A stretch of DNA of 47,686 nucleotides, taken from IMG/VR virus record IMGVR_UViG_3300046167_000194, positions 1 to 47,686 of that record; one strand, given 5' to 3'. Under the pieces are notes generated by a model. It worked only from the letters and a program-made list of their open reading frames with translations, had not been told where the DNA came from and did no database searches. Below, in pieces: positions 18,191 through 44,474 of the stretch (position 1 is its first letter; the number at the start of each line of letters is the position of its first letter). This stretch comes from a virus. The position numbers and the translations under genes are program-made.

Positions 18191-21100
18191 TTATTCTCCT
18201 TTTAGTTTATTAATTTCAGATTGTAAGGCTTCAATCTGTGTTTGTTGTTCTTTCATTCCTGCAACTAAATGTACTACAAGTTTGCTGTAATCCATTTGAT
18301 ACATCTCTTCTTCAGAACCTGTTACTGCATTTGGTACTATCTCTTGTACTTCTTGAGCTATGAGACCTTCGTCAGCTTTACCATCTGCTTTCCAGTTATA
18401 TGAAACTGGGTTAAGTTTGTTGATAACTTCTAAACCTCTAGCTTCGCCTGTAACGTCTTTTAGTCTTGCATCTGATGATGTGTTGTAGGTTGTTGAAGTA
18501 CCTGAACAAGAAATAGAACCAGCAGCTCCAGCACTTGTAACAAAATAACCTGCAAGACCAGTAGAATTACTAGTTCTATAAATATATCCTGTGCCTGTGC
18601 CATTTACATAAAGACCATCTGATGAACCATGATGTAATGTTAATTTACCAAGCTGTGGAGTTCCGCCCACCAACAAGTTACCTGAAGTGTCTACCCTAAG
18701 AACCTCTCCTGTTCCATCAGAGTCTTCAAGAGTTAAAGCATGAGAGCTACGATAATTTTTAAATGTCCAAGAACCTGTGTCTGAACCTACTTGCAAATAT
18801 GCGTTACCTGTACCACCTTGTGCTGTTAATGATGCAACATTAGCTGTTCCTGAAAGGTGAAGGTCTTGGAATCGGTTGCTACTTCCACCTAATGAAATAC
18901 CGCCATTAGGTAAAGCGTTACTATTTACATAATAGGGCGAAATTCTATTGTTGGTACTATCAAAGTATAGACCTGAATCAACACTACCAATATACATATT
19001 TGTAGTAGTAGAAGTGTGTGAACCAATACTTCCAACTGTTGAGCCGTCTTTTCTAAAACTTACAATGTCTCCATCACCATCTAACCTGTTAAAATATGCA
19101 GTAATGTTGTTAGATTTAGCTAACTGTATAGTTCCATCTGATTCAATTAAAGTTCCTGTGTTACCACCAGCACCATTGTTATATAAAGAGTCATCAGTAG
19201 TCCCCACCAACACGTTACCTGATGAGTCTATTCTCATGGCATCAGCAGTATTAGTTTTAAAGTTCATATAGTTTCCAGAGTGGTCGTATGTAATAACACC
19301 GACATTCTGGTCGTCTATATCACCAAACTCTATACTACAAGCATTAGCTGCTGGACTTACCATTGTAAGCCTTACAGTTGTATTATTTTCTAGTAATAAT
19401 TGACTGTTTGAAGCAGTAAAAGTACCAGCAGAAGCATTTTTAATATGTAAGTTAGCTTCAGGAGAAGTTTCTCCAATTCCAACGTTTCCGCCTAGCTGTT
19501 GAAGGACAAGGCTACCGCTAGTTGTAAAGGTGTCTGTAGATTTTTGATAACTTGAACTGTCTATAGATATATATCTATCTGAACCAGTTGCACCTCCTTT
19601 ATGGGCAACAGCCATACCAAATAAAAAATCATCACCATCATCGCTTGATATAAATTGTGTATAGTTTTTACTGGTATTTGTACGAGCAATACCAGATGAT
19701 ACATGTAATGGAGTAGCAATATTGGTTATCCCAATTCCAACGTTTCCTGTTGAGTCTATTCTCATCTTTTCTGAAATTGAATTGCTATTTATGGTTTCAA
19801 AAATAAGAGAGCCTGATTGAGCGCCTCCTGCTGTGTTATCAAAATTTGCTGATATACCTGCGTAAAATTGAGTTAAAGATGCAGAGTTTAGACCATGAAA
19901 CGCAATACCCGACTTGTTACCTGCTGTGGATGTTGGGTTCAATGTGTTCATTGCGTATTGCGAACTTTCTGAAACTGTTAGCTTTCTTGAAGGATTATCA
20001 GTTCCAATTCCAACGTTACCTGAACCATCTATTCTGAAATGCTCTAAAGTTCCACCTGAAGAACTTGCATCGCCACCTGTTCTAATGGCAAATTCACCAT
20101 CAATGCTTCTTATTTGAGTAGAGCCAACGCTATCAATAAATGGTATTACTACTGTACTGTCTGTTGATTCAAATGTAGCTACTGTGTTTGTACTTCCAGA
20201 ATTAACATGAAGTTTTGTACTTGGCGAAGTTGTGCCGATTCCAACATTTCCGCCAAGCGGTTGTAGTGATAAAGGTTTTAAATTATTTGTACCATCATCT
20301 TGTATAGATTGCATATAACCATAATTGTAACCATTAGAGCCTATCCAAAGTGAAATTGCACCACCATTATTAATTTTTGCAGCAGGTGTTGAAGATGTTG
20401 AAATTGTTGATGTATCTGCTGGTCCTTGTACGTGTAGTCTTGCACTAAGTGATGTTCTTCCAATTCCAAGCGATTCAGCACTAGCATCCCAAAATAAACC
20501 TGCAGTTGAGCCTGTGTCTTCGTAGAAGGATATGTCTCCGTTGGATGCTGCCCTAAATCTTGTTATACTATTTGCTCTAGCAATAAAGTCGTTACCATCT
20601 GCACCTATATAAACAGAAGAAGTAGAAGAAGTGTTATCTTCAAAGCCAATAAATGCAAATTGGTCTGTGGATTTAGTAACAATTCCTATATTTGTTCCGC
20701 CACCATCAACAGTCAAACCATCAGCAGTTACTGTGCCTGTTACGTCTATGCCTGTTGAGGTTGTTGCTAGTTTTAGCGAATTATCTGAATATAGCTGAAC
20801 AGCACCATTGCCAAAGAATTTTGCATAGTCTTCAGTTCCATCACGGCTTCGCATTATAATGTTACTGCCTTCTAAGACTAGATAAGAAGACGTGCTATCT
20901 ATTACGGTATTACCTGAGTCAGAAGCAACTTCAAGATTAGGTAAGGAAATAGCATCCATCGTGGCTGTACCTGTTACGTCTATGCCTGTTGAGGTTGTGG
21001 CTAGTTTGGTTTGTGCATTATGTGATAAAGTAACTGCACCATTTGGTGTAGCACCTATCATTAGGTCTGTACCATTTCCCTCATAAACAGCAAACTCATT

Positions 21101-33795: not shown

Positions 33796-33952
33796 GTTGT
33801 AGCTCTTGAATCTCTCCTAGAACTAACAACCCATACTGTATAGCTATTCTACTTGCTTGGGCAATGGTATCTGCTTTAATGTAAGGACCTATTGCAATTC
33901 CTTCATGTGCATCTATATACTCAGTTATCCAAAGCTTATTCATAGCTAACAT
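33761..33952 (-). CDS. Small protein downstream of small terminase
   Basis: 63 residues (60 if the second ATG at 33943 is used), helical, with MNKLWITEYIDAHEGIAIGP at its core start and an acidic-to-basic tail. It overlaps the small terminase gene by 17 bases in another frame. Function unknown. Confidence 0.65.
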   Translation of the reverse strand: MLAMNKLWITEYIDAHEGIAIGPYIKADTIAQASRIAIQYGLLVLGEIQELQHEEQEIKKIVH

Positions 33953-34346
33953 CTTCTGCTTCTATATCAATCGTATGTTTCTCTGGTAGTATAAAGATAC
34001 CACCACTGACATTATGATTAACATCTAGCTTATCGGTCTTAACAACACCAGCCCTATCTAGTATCGTCTGTGCAGCTTGTAGCTTGTTGTTAGCTTGAGG
34101 AACAGGCTTATCAGATTTCATAACCTCTATAAGCTTGAATGCTGCAGTAGGAGCTTCCCTTGCAAGTACGTCACTGGCTAAATCCACTACTTCGTTTTTA
34201 AGTGATTTTAATATTTGATAGTGATTGCCTGAATACCCTGCAAGTTCGGCTGACTTTTTGAAATCCCCACCAGTTTCTACTAAGTGATTCAAGAATGCTT
34301 CTTGTTTCTCAGTTAGATTTCTTTTCTTCTCTGGCAAGTAACTCAT
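33936..34346 (-). CDS. terS: Terminase small subunit
   Basis: 136 residues. The N-terminal LTEKQEAFLNHLVETGGDF-KKSAELAGYSG segment is a helix-turn-helix typical of small terminases, followed by a helical oligomerisation region and a beta-hairpin-like C-terminus (GGIFILPEKHTID). Known role: recognises the packaging site and stimulates the large subunit. It is the first gene leftward of the hub. Its ATG lies only about 6 bases after a consensus -10 box, so the mRNA may be leaderless. Confidence 0.85.
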   Translation of the reverse strand: MSYLPEKKRNLTEKQEAFLNHLVETGGDFKKSAELAGYSGNHYQILKSLKNEVVDLASDVLAREAPTAAFKLIEVMKSDKPVPQANNKLQAAQTILDRAGVVKTDKLDVNHNVSGGIFILPEKHTIDIEAEDVSYE

Positions 34347-34352
34347 GCTATT

Positions 34353-34382
34353 ATTATATAGTATCTTTTAAAGATTTGTCAA
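34353..34382 (-). promoter_or_regulatory. Leftward sigma70-type promoter for late genes
   Basis: Minus strand TTGACA (34377-34382), 18-base spacer, TATAAT (34353-34358). Both hexamers are exact consensus. The small terminase ATG at 34346 is just beyond the -10 box. Confidence 0.8.
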
Positions 34383-34419
34383 GTCTTTTGATGTAATTTA
34401 AAGTAATTGAAGAAAGTAC

Positions 34420-34448
34420 TTGACAAAATTGAAAAGTATGTGTATAAT
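34420..34448 (+). promoter_or_regulatory. Rightward sigma70-type promoter
   Basis: TTGACA (34420-34425), exactly 17 bases, TATAAT (34443-34448): a perfect consensus promoter. It is divergent from the leftward one, with 37 bases between the two -35 boxes, and would transcribe through about 690 bases of non-coding hub DNA before the first rightward gene. Confidence 0.85.
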
Positions 34449-34688
34449 ATAATTGAAAATGTCCCCCGTTTTAAATACCTAATAAAGCCCACCCTAGTCA
34501 TACTGACTACCCACCTTATTCCTTCTTTATTATCCCCCAAACTAACACTAACAACTATAAAATATTAGGAGTTATTCTGTGTTATAAAGTATATAAAAGC
34601 TTATGAAGTTTGTAAAGTTTTAAAGCTTTATAAAGCCCAACTGGTTAATACCACTATTGGGTAGAAATGTATAAGATTTATATATATA

Positions 34689-34722
34689 CCCACCCACCCC
34701 CCGTGTGCATCCTGCCCCCCCC
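34689..34722 (-). repeat. G-rich tract (possible quadruplex) in hub
   Basis: On the minus strand runs of 8, 6, 3 and 3 guanines occur within 34 bases (plus-strand C runs at 34715-34722, 34697-34702, 34693-34695 and 34689-34691). This fits a G-quadruplex with one long loop and lies 35 bases from the DnaA boxes, in otherwise AT-rich DNA. Confidence 0.55.
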
Positions 34723-34828
34723 TACTTGAAAAACTTACTAACAGGATATCAACAACTTATCCACTTTTAAAGTGTGTCGTGTATAACCTGTGGATAACTC
34801 TGTGGATAACTTTACAAACTTCACAAGC

Positions 34829-34867
34829 TTTAAAAGTGTCATACTAGCCCTTTAAAAGTGTCATACT
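34829..34867 (+). repeat. 17-base direct repeat, 22-base period
   Basis: Two exact copies of TTTAAAAGTGTCATACT (34829-34845, 34851-34867) separated by five bases, so spaced about two helical turns. A typical arrangement for a protein-binding iteron. Confidence 0.8.
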
Positions 34868-34964
34868 TTACAAGCTTATCAAGTCTAGTTTATGAGCCTT
34901 TGAAAGTTAATTAAGTGTGTAAAGTTTACTTTACAAGCTTGATACACTTTAAAAGCTTGAATTA

Positions 34965-34987
34965 ATTTGTCACAAAACTTGACAAAT
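34965..34987. promoter_or_regulatory. 8-base inverted repeat, operator-like
   Basis: ATTTGTCA (34965-34972) and its exact reverse complement TGACAAAT (34980-34987) with a 7-base centre. ATTTGTCA also overlaps the -35 box of the leftward promoter (34374-34381) and a related sequence covers the rightward -35, so one regulator could bind all three. Confidence 0.5.
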
Positions 34988-35069
34988 CAAAAAACCTTTT
35001 TTTTCAAAACTCGTCTCGTGGATTTTCACAATAAAAAAACACCTCTGAAACCCTTATAAATAAAGGGCT

Positions 35070-35099
35070 TTGCAAAGCTATATTTTTAATGCTTATAAT
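35070..35099 (+). promoter_or_regulatory. Promoter of first rightward gene
   Basis: TTGCAA (35070-35075), 18 bases, TATAAT (35094-35099), 45 bases before the ATG at 35145, which has an AGAGGG ribosome site. A CCCTT/AAGGG hairpin precedes the -35. Confidence 0.65.
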
Positions 35100-35144
35100 A
35101 CTCATGTCATGACAATAAAGTGATGACAATTTTAGAGGGTAATT

Positions 35145-35474
35145 ATGAAAACATTTAAACACACACCAATAACTAATAACGATACAGATTATTTTGCATT
35201 GTCTTTAATAGATAGAGGGTTAGCTGATACAAGGGCTTTAAAAATAGCTGAAGGATTAAGAGTAAATGATTGGGACAATGTAACAAGTGCAATTTGTAAC
35301 TGTGACTGTTCCAACTTCTCTTTATTATTAAAGATTGAGCCACGCTTAGTATATACAGCATTTGAGAGAGAAGAATGTAACGCTTTAAAGGAAAGGATAG
35401 AGCAAGAAACAGATACTTTTTATAGTGGCGGAGAATGGCTTACAGAATCAACGATTGGAGACACTACCTTTTAA
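35145..35474 (+). CDS. Early hypothetical protein with three clustered cysteines
   Basis: 109 residues. The middle holds CNCDC (three cysteines in five residues), which could bind a metal, within an otherwise helical acidic protein. First gene rightward of the hub, with its own promoter and an AGAGGG ribosome site, followed by a strong hairpin. Probably an early host-interaction protein; not recognised. Confidence 0.7.
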   Translation: MKTFKHTPITNNDTDYFALSLIDRGLADTRALKIAEGLRVNDWDNVTSAICNCDCSNFSLLLKIEPRLVYTAFEREECNALKERIEQETDTFYSGGEWLTESTIGDTTF

Positions 35475-37211: not shown

Positions 37212-37419
37212 AACATATAACGATTATTATTTTGAAAAGCTTGACATACTTGACACACTTGACAAGCTTGACATGAGTGTAAGGTTTCTGGACAAGTGGA
37301 TAGATGAGCCAGAAGGCTTAGAGAACGCTAGATATATACTAGAAAAGAATGCCAATAGAAAGTTTAATTGGTTTGATACTAACATGGTAAGAGAATTACT
37401 AGAGGAGGAAGTGAGATGA
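37204..37419 (+). CDS. 71-residue protein with Leu-Asp triplet repeat
   Basis: ATG at 37204 with GGGAGGAATTATATA upstream; an in-frame TTG at 37183 is less likely. Residues 10-23 read KLDILDTLDKLDMS from a 9-base tandem repeat, followed by a helical domain. Its stop overlaps the next ATG. Function unknown. Confidence 0.65.
   Translation: MSRTYNDYYFEKLDILDTLDKLDMSVRFLDKWIDEPEGLENARYILEKNANRKFNWFDTNMVRELLEEEVR
37240..37275 (+). repeat. Four tandem 9-base units CTTGACANN
   Basis: CTTGACA begins at 37240, 37249, 37258 and 37267, exactly nine bases apart, inside a coding frame. The same CTTGACA word forms the -35 of the hub promoters. Confidence 0.85.
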
Positions 37420-40395: not shown

Positions 40396-40809
40396 ATGTA
40401 TGAGTATGTAGAAGGAAAAGCTATGTGGGCTAACGTCAGCACACCGAACACTAAGTTCGAGCCACATAAGTATGGAATTGTTGTGTTGACTGATGAAGAT
40501 ACTGCTACTAGATTAGAAAATGCAGGTTTGTCAAGGGTAAGAACCAGAGATGGTCAAGCCAAGTATGATGAACCCGCTTTCTCATTTAGTAGGAAAGTAG
40601 AAAGGCATGACGGGACTACCAATCCGGCACCTAAATTAGTTGACAGTGATGGCAACGCTTTAGATGTTAGCTTGGGTAACGGTTCAGAAGTGACTGTGAA
40701 GATTAAACCTTACACAGGAAAGTACGGTACGTTTGCAGAGTTAATAGCTGTGAAGGTTACTAATTTAATTGAATACACTGAACCAAGTTCAGATAACGAG
40801 GAGTTTTAA
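40396..40809 (+). CDS. ssb: Single-stranded DNA-binding protein
   Basis: 137 residues, beta-rich OB-fold-like pattern (GKAMWANVSTPNTKFEPHKYG, IVVLTDEDT..., VTVKIKPYTGKYGTFAELIAVKV) and an acidic C-terminal tail ending NEEF, the phage SSB hallmark that recruits polymerase and helicase. Good CGGAGGTAAATAT ribosome site, just before the primase-helicase genes. Known role: coats ssDNA at the fork. Confidence 0.85.
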   Translation: MYEYVEGKAMWANVSTPNTKFEPHKYGIVVLTDEDTATRLENAGLSRVRTRDGQAKYDEPAFSFSRKVERHDGTTNPAPKLVDSDGNALDVSLGNGSEVTVKIKPYTGKYGTFAELIAVKVTNLIEYTEPSSDNEEF

Positions 40810-41053: not shown

Positions 41054-41071
41054 TTCATAGTGAGGGCTAAC

Positions 41072-41833
41072 ATGGATAAAACTTGGGATAAGTTACATCA
41101 ACCTTGTCCGCTTTGCAAGAGCAGTGATGCTGTAGGAATCAACGAAGATGACTCAGCAAAATGCTTTAGCTGTGGAGAGTTTATGCCTAGCTATACTAAA
41201 GCATGTGGAGGAAAGGATATGCAATCAACAACAACAATAACGCAGACTAAACAGCCTGATGTGGTAGGTGAAGGAAAGTTTTCAGCCCTTACGGACAGAA
41301 AGATTTCTATGGCTACTGCTCAGAAGTACGGAGTGAAATGTGTACATGACTTACAAGGTAATGTAGTTAAACATTTCTATCCTTACTTTAACGGGCATGA
41401 ACTATCAGCTACCAAAGTTCGTAACGTAAAGGACAAAGACTTCTTTGTATCTGGAAGTTACAACGACACAGGTTTGTTTGGTCAGCAACTTTTCAAAAGC
41501 GGTAAGTACGTTACCGTTACTGAAGGCGAGTGTGATGCTATGGCTACTTATGAACTCTTGGGTTCTAAGTGGGCTGTAGTATCTATCAAGCGTGGTGCTA
41601 ACGGTGCAGTAAGAGATATCAAGGAAAGCTTAGAGTTCTTTGATGACTTTGAAAACGTTATCATTGCATTTGATAAAGACAAAGCCGGACAAGAAGCTAG
41701 TATAAAAGTTGCTAGACTTTTCAAACCCGGAAAAGCTCGTATCGTTACACTTCCTAACGGTTGGAAAGACCCTAACGATATGCTAAGAAACAACAAGCAC
41801 AAAGAGTTTGTTGAATCCTTGGTGGGCTTCTAA
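41072..41833 (+). CDS. Primase part of a T7 gp4-like primase-helicase
   Basis: Start ATG at 41072 with GAGGG upstream. Residues about 10-35 are a zinc ribbon (CPLC...CFSC), a TOPRIM domain follows (VTEGECDAM, then IIAFDKDKAGQEAS with the metal-binding Asp pair). The frame stops after FVESLVGF, but the expected linker to the helicase continues in the next frame (WWASKVYTPSGVINVSEQRE) if one T at 41819-41820 is removed. With a second one-base correction at 41886-41887 it fuses to the helicase, giving about 556 residues, close to T7 gp4 (566). Makes RNA primers on the lagging strand. Confidence 0.9.
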   Translation: MDKTWDKLHQPCPLCKSSDAVGINEDDSAKCFSCGEFMPSYTKACGGKDMQSTTTITQTKQPDVVGEGKFSALTDRKISMATAQKYGVKCVHDLQGNVVKHFYPYFNGHELSATKVRNVKDKDFFVSGSYNDTGLFGQQLFKSGKYVTVTEGECDAMATYELLGSKWAVVSIKRGANGAVRDIKESLEFFDDFENVIIAFDKDKAGQEASIKVARLFKPGKARIVTLPNGWKDPNDMLRNNKHKEFVESLVGF

Positions 41834-41859: not shown

Positions 41860-42744
41860 ATGTATCGGAGCAACGTGAGAAGTTTCCATAATCGTGAGAA
41901 GAAACAAAGTGTACCTTATCCTTACGAAGGACTGAACAAGAAATTGTATGGTCTTAGACAAGGAGAACTGGTCACACTTACAGGTGGTACAGGGCTTGGT
42001 AAGTCCAGTGTCACAAGAGAACTTGAACATCATCTCATTAAAAGCACTAACGACAACGTAGGTATCATAGCCTTAGAAGAAGATTGGAGACGTACCATTG
42101 ACGGTATCTTATCCATTGAAGCTAACGCTAGACTTTACGTTGACCAAGAACGTGAGAAGTTTTCTAAAGAAGAATTGGATAAAATGTTTGACATGCTTTA
42201 TGACGGTGAGAATCGTAATAGAGTATGGGTACACTCCCACTTTGGTACCAATGACATTGACGATATCTTTACTAAGCTTCGCTTCATGATTATTGGATGT
42301 GACTGTAAGTGGGTGGTCGTTGACCATCTACACATGTTAGTCAGTGCAGTGCATGAAGGAGATGAAAGGAGAGCAATTGATACTATCATGACTAGGCTGA
42401 GAAGTTTAGTAGAAGAAACAGGTGCCGGAATCGTTTTGGTTTCCCACTTGAGACGTGTTGATGGTAACAAGGGACATGAGAACGGGATAGAAGTATCTCT
42501 ATCTCATCTTAGAGGTTCTAATAGTATTGGACAACTTAGTGATTGTGTGATAGCATTAGAACGTAACCAACAGTCAGATGACCCTGATGAAGCTAGGACA
42601 ACTAGGTTAAGAGTTCTTAAATCTAGATATACCGGTGATGTAGGGATGGCATGTAGAGTAATCTATGATGCTGAAACTGGCAGACTATCTGAACTAACAG
42701 ATGAGGACATAACCTTTGATGCAAGTTTGGATGAGGCATTTTAA
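41860..42744 (+). CDS. Replicative helicase part (DnaB/T7 gp4-like)
   Basis: RecA-type helicase core: Walker A GGTGLGKS, Walker B WVVVDHL, switch VLVSHLRRV and the LKSRYTGDVG near-C-terminal motif, all as in T7 gp4 helicase, and an acidic C-terminus (DASLDEAF) like the one that binds polymerase in T7. The first 9 codons (MYRSNVRSF) are probably not native: the correct upstream sequence is in another frame (see primase entry), so the apparent ATG start is a by-product of a one-base insertion at 41886-41887. Its TAA overlaps the polymerase ATG. Confidence 0.92.
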   Translation: MYRSNVRSFHNREKKQSVPYPYEGLNKKLYGLRQGELVTLTGGTGLGKSSVTRELEHHLIKSTNDNVGIIALEEDWRRTIDGILSIEANARLYVDQEREKFSKEELDKMFDMLYDGENRNRVWVHSHFGTNDIDDIFTKLRFMIIGCDCKWVVVDHLHMLVSAVHEGDERRAIDTIMTRLRSLVEETGAGIVLVSHLRRVDGNKGHENGIEVSLSHLRGSNSIGQLSDCVIALERNQQSDDPDEARTTRLRVLKSRYTGDVGMACRVIYDAETGRLSELTDEDITFDASLDEAF

Positions 42745-44474
42745 TGGACTTAGTATTTGACATAGAAACAGATGACTTAAAAGCAACTCTGGTACACTGT
42801 ATCGTTGCTCAAGACATGGACACTGGGGAGATATTTAAATTCCCACCAGATAAATTGTCTGAAGGTTATGAACTGTTGACTAAGGCAGATACTTTAATAG
42901 GACATAACATCATTGGATTTGACATACCTATGGTAGAGAAGTTCGGTGGTGTTGACTTGTCGCACATACCAGTCATTGATACTCTTGTATTATCAAGACT
43001 GTTCAACCCTAACAGAGAAGGCGGACACAGCCTTGAGAAGTGGGGATATAAATTAGGATATCATAAGATAGATTTCTCAGACTATCTTAACTACTCTAAA
43101 GAGATGATGGACTATTGTGTTAGAGATGTACAACTCAACGCTGTAGTATTAAAGAAACTTAGAGAAGAGAGTAAAGGATTCTCCAAACAATGTATAGCTA
43201 TTGAACAAGGTGTAGCTAGGATAATGAAACAACAAGAAGTAAATGGTTTCAAGTTTGATTTACAATCAGCATTGTTATTACTTGCTGAACTTAGAGAAAA
43301 GAAACAAGTTATTGAAGATGAGGTTCATAATACATTTAAACCTAAATGGGTAGATGATAAATTAGTTACCCCTTACATTAAGAAAGACGGAGACTTATCT
43401 AAGCGTGGACTTACAGATGATGAGTACAAGAGATGTATAGATACTAATAACTTTAAACCTTTTATGAGACAAACACTACAAGTCTTTAATCTTGGTAGTC
43501 GTAAACAGATAGGAGAATATCTTATTGACTTTGGTTGGAAGCCTGAAAGGTTTACACCTACAGGTCAACCTATAGTAGATGAGAAAACTCTATCAGCAAT
43601 CACACATATACACGAAGCTAAACTTATAGCAGACTTCTTACTACTTCAAAAGCGTATAGCTCAAGTTGATTCTTGGGTTGAAGGAGTACAAGAAGATGGT
43701 AGAGTACATGGCTTTGTTATACCTAACGGTGCTATCACAGGAAGAATGACACATAGGAATCCTAACATGGCACAAGTACCGGCAATCTATAGCCCATATG
43801 GAAAAGAATGTAGAGCATGTTGGACTGTAGAAGAAGGTAATGTTTTAATCGGAGTTGATGCTTCTGGTCTTGAGATTAGAATGTTAGCTCACTACATGAA
43901 TGACGAGGAGTACACAAATGAAATTCTCAACGGAGACATACACACCGCTAATCAAAAACTTGCACAGCTTGAATCAAGAGATAAGGCAAAGACATTCATC
44001 TATGCACTCATGTACGGAGCCGGAGATGAAAAACTTGGAAGCGTGGTTGGAGGAAGTACATCAGACGGTAAAAGAGCTAGACAATATTTCTTTGATAATA
44101 AACCTACATTTAAATCTCTTAGAGACAGAGTACAAAGAGCATCAGCAAAAAATTATCTCAAGGGGTTAGATGGTAGAAAGCTATATGTTCGTAACCAACA
44201 TTCAGCATTGAACACTTTACTACAAGGTGCGGGTGCTATCGTAATGAAACAGGGACTGGTTCTATTAGATGATGTACTAAGACTGAACGCTATGGAATAT
44301 AAGTTCGTAGCTAACATACATGATGAGTGGCAGATAGAAGTTCCTAAGTGTCACGCTGATAAGGTAGGACAGTTAGCTGTAGAGAGTATAGTAAAAGCCG
44401 GAACACATTTTAATCTTCGTTGTCCGTTGGATGGCGAATACAAGATAGGAGATAACTGGAGTGAAACCCACTAA
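42744..44474 (+). CDS. polA: Family A DNA polymerase with 3'-5' exonuclease (T7 gp5-like)
   Basis: 576 residues. Exonuclease motifs: FDIETDD (about 5-11), GHNIIGFDIPM and YCVRDV. Polymerase motif A VGVDASGLEIR-type (here IGVDASGLE), motif B RDKAKTFIYALMYGAG, motif C NIHDEWQIE. Tyr occupies the position equivalent to E. coli Phe762, as in T7 (Tyr526). The protein is compact (T7 gp5 is 704), lacking part of the thumb/palm insert; a long thioredoxin-binding loop is not obvious. Replicates the phage genome. Coupled to the helicase by TAATG. No frameshift here. Confidence 0.96.
   Translation: MDLVFDIETDDLKATLVHCIVAQDMDTGEIFKFPPDKLSEGYELLTKADTLIGHNIIGFDIPMVEKFGGVDLSHIPVIDTLVLSRLFNPNREGGHSLEKWGYKLGYHKIDFSDYLNYSKEMMDYCVRDVQLNAVVLKKLREESKGFSKQCIAIEQGVARIMKQQEVNGFKFDLQSALLLLAELREKKQVIEDEVHNTFKPKWVDDKLVTPYIKKDGDLSKRGLTDDEYKRCIDTNNFKPFMRQTLQVFNLGSRKQIGEYLIDFGWKPERFTPTGQPIVDEKTLSAITHIHEAKLIADFLLLQKRIAQVDSWVEGVQEDGRVHGFVIPNGAITGRMTHRNPNMAQVPAIYSPYGKECRACWTVEEGNVLIGVDASGLEIRMLAHYMNDEEYTNEILNGDIHTANQKLAQLESRDKAKTFIYALMYGAGDEKLGSVVGGSTSDGKRARQYFFDNKPTFKSLRDRVQRASAKNYLKGLDGRKLYVRNQHSALNTLLQGAGAIVMKQGLVLLDDVLRLNAMEYKFVANIHDEWQIEVPKCHADKVGQLAVESIVKAGTHFNLRCPLDGEYKIGDNWSETH

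Follow-up and report, generated by a model that had tools for sequence, protein, structure and literature searches.

Our results suggest that these marine phages borrow the replication start signal of their host in order to copy their genomes. In particular, judging from nucleotide sequence, we consider it somewhat probable that the gene-free hub at positions 34347 to 35144 of the window is a replication origin that depends on host DnaA, where by the window we mean the whole stretch of DNA analyzed, namely a 47.7-kb linear IMG/VR virus record.

By sequence comparison, the phage is kin of the HTVC103P-type pelagiphages (approximately 75% nucleotide identity in the portal gene), and its large terminase shares 64% amino-acid identity with that of HTVC115P. 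At 36% G+C it would belong with the 'group IV' marine assemblies, the hosts of which are not known (PMC8528129). Terminase, portal and capsid genes are present beside the T7-type replisome that the initial annotation had already recognized and that the assignments given below bear out. That said, the phage is T7-like by its replisome only and is not an autographivirus. Transcription units are oriented to the left from 34346 and to the right from 35145, and the hub, which contains no long ORFs, lies between the leftward packaging genes and the rightward replication genes; as the initial annotation stated, it is the only long gene-free stretch. The genes that matter here are the following:

33936 to 34346, minus strand: terminase small subunit (TerS), left border of the hub (phrog_2538, E 5e-5), with close homologues in 80 relative loci
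35145 to 35474, plus strand: first ORF of the early region, bordering the hub on the right
40396 to 40809, plus strand: Gp2.5-like single-strand binding protein (phrog_112)
41060 to 41833, plus strand: primase part of the T7-type primase-helicase (phrog_239)
41860 to 42744, plus strand: helicase part of the T7-type primase-helicase (phrog_239)
42744 to 44474, plus strand: family A DNA polymerase (phrog_17), 51% amino-acid identity to the HTVC115P polymerase

As a side observation, the primase and helicase parts lie in different frames in the window, whereas relatives whose protein is near-identical to left and right of the junction (e.g. L125) have both parts in one frame, the junction differing in length by 2 nt; this split reflects an assembly error or else a genuine frameshift.

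Four DnaA boxes, exact or near, are clustered within the hub:

34757 to 34765, plus strand: near box TTATCCACT, lying within the TTATCCAC motif that is conserved in relatives
34778 to 34786, minus strand: near box TTATACACG, separated by a 2-bp gap from the box at 34789
34789 to 34797, minus strand: exact box TTATCCACA
34801 to 34809, minus strand: exact box TTATCCACA, separated by a 3-bp gap from the box at 34789

The initial annotation had pointed to two exact boxes 12 bases apart and to a third near match, and all three are confirmed (the exact pair at 34789 and 34801, 12 bp start-to-start, and the near match at 34778), with the box at 34757 now added as a fourth. No further exact TTATCCACA occurs outside the tandem pair in the 47,686 bp; Markov simulations lead one to expect 0.55-0.61 exact boxes per window, and two exact boxes within 30 bp were seen in none of 150 simulated windows. 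With 6 occurrences in the window as a whole vs 7.1 expected, the looser pattern TTWTNCACA shows no enrichment, and the significance of the finding lies in the exact tandem pair together with its recurrence in relatives, and not in the box count alone. What is more, the spacing of the cluster is one that DnaA can use, a feature which is strong in the second lineage described below. Namely, E. coli DnaA in vivo prefers double boxes with gaps of 2-3 bp, and the gaps in the window (2 and 3 bp) reproduce this geometry (PMC11317965). The double box TTATCCACAGAGTTATCCACA is present in 20 of 289 alphaproteobacterial genomes and its reversed pattern in 0/289, and base composition therefore does not account for the double-box signature. 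Given these matches, host DnaA very probably binds the boxes. We also considered mimicry of the SAR11 origin and rejected it: a TTATCCACA or TTATNCACA pair within 20-24 bp is present in 0/15 SAR11 genomes, and a direct copy of the SAR11 origin is consequently not seen. The lack of double boxes in SAR11 genomes weighs against the origin reading, as does the small size of the array in the window, with its two exact and two near boxes.

Close to the boxes lies a second element, which an origin would need for opening of the strands:

34639 to 34702, unstranded: conserved core consisting of an AT-rich block, ACTGGTTAATACC..AATGTATAAGATTTATATATATA, and a terminal C-tract, CCCACCCACCCCCC (34689-34702); candidate unwinding element

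This core is recognizable in the hubs of close relatives, boxed and boxless alike, and in a DNA stability computation positions 34560-34700 fall within the least stable 1.2% of stretches in the window. Easily melted AT-rich DNA adjoins the boxes both in the window and in four loci of the second lineage. The initial annotation had noted AT-rich flanks; the hub as a whole differs only modestly in A+T from the window (69% vs 64%). GC skew, which had been proposed as a check on the origin, did not bear it out: the raw skew flips at 35 kb, where the genes change strand as well, and so follows gene strand, and at fourfold-degenerate sites no origin-type switch is found at the hub. For this reason we discarded GC skew as evidence for an origin, and the missing signal at fourfold sites counts against one.

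How well are the boxes kept among relatives? Using TerS as an anchor, we fetched 80 loci of relatives and counted boxes in 53 non-redundant hubs of the window's clade. These contain 37 exact boxes, compared with 0.22 in shuffled sequences and approximately 0.7 expected at the off-hub rate, the same loci carrying just 7 exact boxes in 327 kb outside the hubs. As to the conservation proposed as a check by the initial annotation, at least one exact box occurs in 22 of the 53 hubs, in differing arrangements, and boxes recur in a second lineage, but 31 of the 53 hubs have none, nor do the hubs of the cultured phages HTVC103P/104P/115P/033P and HMO-2011/CRP. In divergent members both the order and the orientation of boxes vary, and it is therefore the motif that is kept or regained, and not the stretch. 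Two of the boxless hubs (L285 and L287) match the window at approximately 92% up to the C-tract and then continue into an unrelated right half. We also looked for an early-gene partner of the boxes; a linked early-gene cluster, c9, which by eye resembles GP88/DUF7227, accompanies hubs that lack boxes and gives no hint of an initiator, and this candidate was dropped.

A scan of IMG/VR for double boxes returned at least 119 stretches, at least 17 of which belong to the replisome lineages. The second, uncultured lineage, for which no near relative was found among cultured phages, comprises L092 and its relatives. These have the same replisome and a divergent hub with 6-9 exact boxes packed into about 190 bp, the polymerase following 5.5-6.2 kb downstream. 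In 20 loci of this lineage, the hub zone contains 77 boxes and the 280 kb outside it none; in G304, for example, a contig of complete size, all seven are at 18254-18432 of 35,115 bp. The order is AT-rich DNA, the C-tract CCCCTCCCCC and then boxes, as it is in L045, L046, L067 and L113, and in stretches of 13-22 kb from L607, L608, L616 and L637 the 60 bp of lowest stability are located approximately 120 bp from where the cluster begins. Spacings between neighboring boxes include 11, 12, 22, 23, 33 and 44 bp, those on the same strand often being 11, 12, 22, 23 or 33 bp, which fits the expectation if degenerate boxes fill an 11-bp lattice. Several sister phages (L662, L664, L676 and L677) lack an exact box and retain the C-tract, and the two that were read, L664 and L677, retain the AT-rich DNA too. 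This patchiness, which extends over the 31 boxless hubs, these sisters and the cultured relatives, weighs against the origin reading. At 4477-4607 of L664, three copies of an 18-nt repeat, AGTTGGCACGGGTATTGC, stand in place of the DnaA cluster. Outside these lineages, phage Slicky01 has a similar divergent gene-free hub (L701:36305-37956) that is boxless and carries a repeated word of the type TTTAGGGGCTAAAGGG, while five further viral contigs (L090, L100, L118, L032 and L087) with 6-8 exact DnaA boxes share at most one protein match with the lineages described.

One could argue that such clusters serve to titrate DnaA, so that the numerous phage copies sequester the initiator and initiation on the host chromosome stops. 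With 6-10 strong boxes per genome (the second lineage, L046/L067) multiplied by phage copy number, the capacity would be there. However, a decoy has no need of a fixed place, yet every box in the second-lineage loci is in the hub; the boxes adjoin the least stable DNA; and two boxes, as in the window, would make a poor sponge. Titration is, in our estimate, quite improbable.

The hub also contains promoters:

34353 to 34382, minus strand: sigma-70 promoter, TTGACA-18-TATAAT, 12/12 matches, leftward, driving TerS and the packaging genes
34420 to 34448, plus strand: sigma-70 promoter, TTGACA-17-TATAAT, 12/12 matches, rightward, nearly invariant in relatives
35070 to 35099, plus strand: promoter-like site ahead of the first early gene, 10/12 matches

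In the leftward promoter, TTGACA and the -10 region are kept in relatives. The -10 ends at 34353, only 7 nt ahead of the TerS start codon, for which reason the TerS message may be leaderless. A consensus scan found no terminator near the rightward promoter, and elsewhere, in the early region (37241-37273), TTGACA occurs four times with a 9-bp period. Could DnaA act here as a transcription factor, the double boxes tying early and packaging expression to the host DnaA level with no start of replication? Two perfect divergent sigma-70 promoters and the early-gene promoter do flank the boxes, and the published E. coli regulon has the same double boxes at promoters (PMC11317965). On the other hand, the boxes are 340-350 bp past the -10 of the rightward promoter and precede the early one by approximately 260 bp, the second lineage has 6-9 boxes where E. 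coli targets are described with just one double box, and in all lineages the next neighbor of the boxes is the AT-rich core and not a promoter. We therefore regard regulation without replication as unlikely.

Repeats make up much of the remaining hub:

34582 to 34635, minus strand: left part of a nonamer array, in the CTTNTAAAG orientation
34810 to 34954, plus strand: right part of the nonamer array, CTTTANAAG, with words at 34810, 34819, 34828, 34850, 34866, 34929 and 34947
34828 to 34867, plus strand: 18-nt direct repeat CTTTAAAAGTGTCATACT, two copies 22 bp apart, starting at 34828 and 34850

The direct repeats of 17 bases reported initially are thus real and one base longer, the exact 18-mer having a near-copy pair in close boxed relatives; the repeated words noted at the same time were found again (TTTACAAGCTT at 34867 and 34930). 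The nonamer array counts 14 words within 400 bp from 34581, and throughout the window's clade words of the form CTT[TC]A[TCA]AA number 581 in 52 hubs, against 28 in shuffled sequences and 45 at the off-hub rate, with spacings of 8-10, 17-19, 27-28 and 36 bp (a period of about 9 bp). It does not appear to be a known bacterial origin motif, an idea we abandoned on finding tandem pairs in 0/96 alphaproteobacterial genomes and only matches that were not arrays among random IMG/VR sequences. Conceivably, the role of true initiator or regulator belongs to a phage-coded protein bound to the CTTTANAAG array, with the boxes for DnaA as an accessory added by some lineages, and the abundance and regular spacing of the words in boxed and boxless hubs alike would fit such a protein. 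However, the second lineage, where the DnaA clusters are strongest, does not have the array, the hubs of cultured relatives contain at most one word, and no candidate binder is known, which makes this explanation very improbable.

Dense hub repeats and an adjoining terS also invite comparison with a landmark for entry control or packaging, that is, a T5-like injection stop signal or a terminase recognition site by terS. The T5 signal is non-coding and rich in repeats, palindromes and, like the hub, DnaA boxes, which are named among its features (PMC13250531); it differs in that it pauses DNA transfer in another phage, no such process being known for these podoviruses. Moreover, contigs cross the hub, and the records of its cultured relatives are opened close by with no reported end, meaning that no fixed genome end is known, and a terminase site would not need DnaA boxes on 11-12 bp lattices. 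A landmark of this kind is highly improbable.

Returning to the host-DnaA origin, one must ask which initiators the phage itself could supply. The initial annotation had noted that T7-like phages start from RNA polymerase transcripts; the replisome is indeed of that type, but the phage RNA polymerase (PF00940) was not found in the window, the record being a fragment and this absence not absolute, while the positive controls, the RNA-polymerase-coding cousins CRP-143, CRP-804 and HTVC109P, did score. A T7-type transcription-primed origin is for this reason unlikely, and none competes with the hub. Across 168 kb from four cousins that code for an RNA polymerase, there is no exact box. A phage DnaA (PF08299) was not found either, nor was a Rep family among the ten early and replication ORFs scanned, repeats being present in the hub.

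If the hub is the phage replication origin, with the build of a small oriC, then host DnaA would occupy the tandem boxes as a cooperative array and, once bound, would melt the adjacent AT-rich core. The phage primase-helicase would then load and prime the family A polymerase. The T7 primase-helicase assembles unaided on exposed single strands. Transcription from the divergent host-type promoters on the left may aid opening. We infer that DnaA binds in the real host, that the core melts and that the helicase loads. More tentatively, it is quite possible that an oriC mimic serves as the replication start in several uncultured marine podovirus lineages with a T7-type replisome and apparently no RNA polymerase. 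In such a mimic, a conserved AT-rich/C-tract core would be combined with an exchangeable initiator-binding module (host-DnaA boxes in some, another repeat family in sisters).

DnaA-box origins are known for chromosomes and plasmids. With bacterial oriC, the hub shares clustered TTATCCACA boxes, gaps of 2-3 bp and adjoining AT-rich DNA, but it belongs to a lytic phage with its own helicase, primase and polymerase, has few boxes in the window and has neither dnaA nor dnaN alongside. The P1 oriR, F and RK2 origins also combine DnaA boxes by AT-rich DNA with direct repeats, and require a plasmid Rep protein on iterons; the hub resembles these plasmid and phage-plasmid origins in all three elements and differs in that a Rep was not recognized. 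The T7 primary origin, with promoters and AT-rich DNA near the early genes, uses transcripts of T7's own RNA polymerase; promoters, AT-rich DNA and a homologous replisome are shared, whereas such a polymerase was not found in the record. In the DnaA-trio basal unwinding system, tandem boxes are likewise followed by a G+C-rich stretch and then AT-rich DNA, but at least 3 NAN trios (TAG-type consensus) lie within 16 bp of the box, and the box-to-AT-rich spacer in the window is longer than the 16 bp allowed (PMC8287927). Finally, the HTVC103P-type pelagiphages and 'group IV' (PMC8528129) have the same divergent arms, replisome, HMO-2011-type portal and terminase, the cultured members differing in their boxless hubs with at most one nonamer word.

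In the open-access literature, we found no description of a DnaA-box origin for lytic podoviruses with a T7-type replisome, an earlier description being possible; on DnaA-box origins in podoviruses it yielded predictions by software, studies of lambda and DnaA, and the T5 remark, and nothing else. We know of no mechanism by which replication starts in marine podoviruses without their own RNA polymerase. If our reading is correct, these phages would use a hybrid start, in which a host-DnaA origin feeds a phage-coded T7-type helicase and polymerase, and phage copying would be linked to the host initiator and to the growth state of the host. What is more, the boxes would provide a sequence mark for predicting host and replication mode in metagenomes, and the exchange of the box module for other repeats next to a constant core would open the evolution of origins to direct testing.
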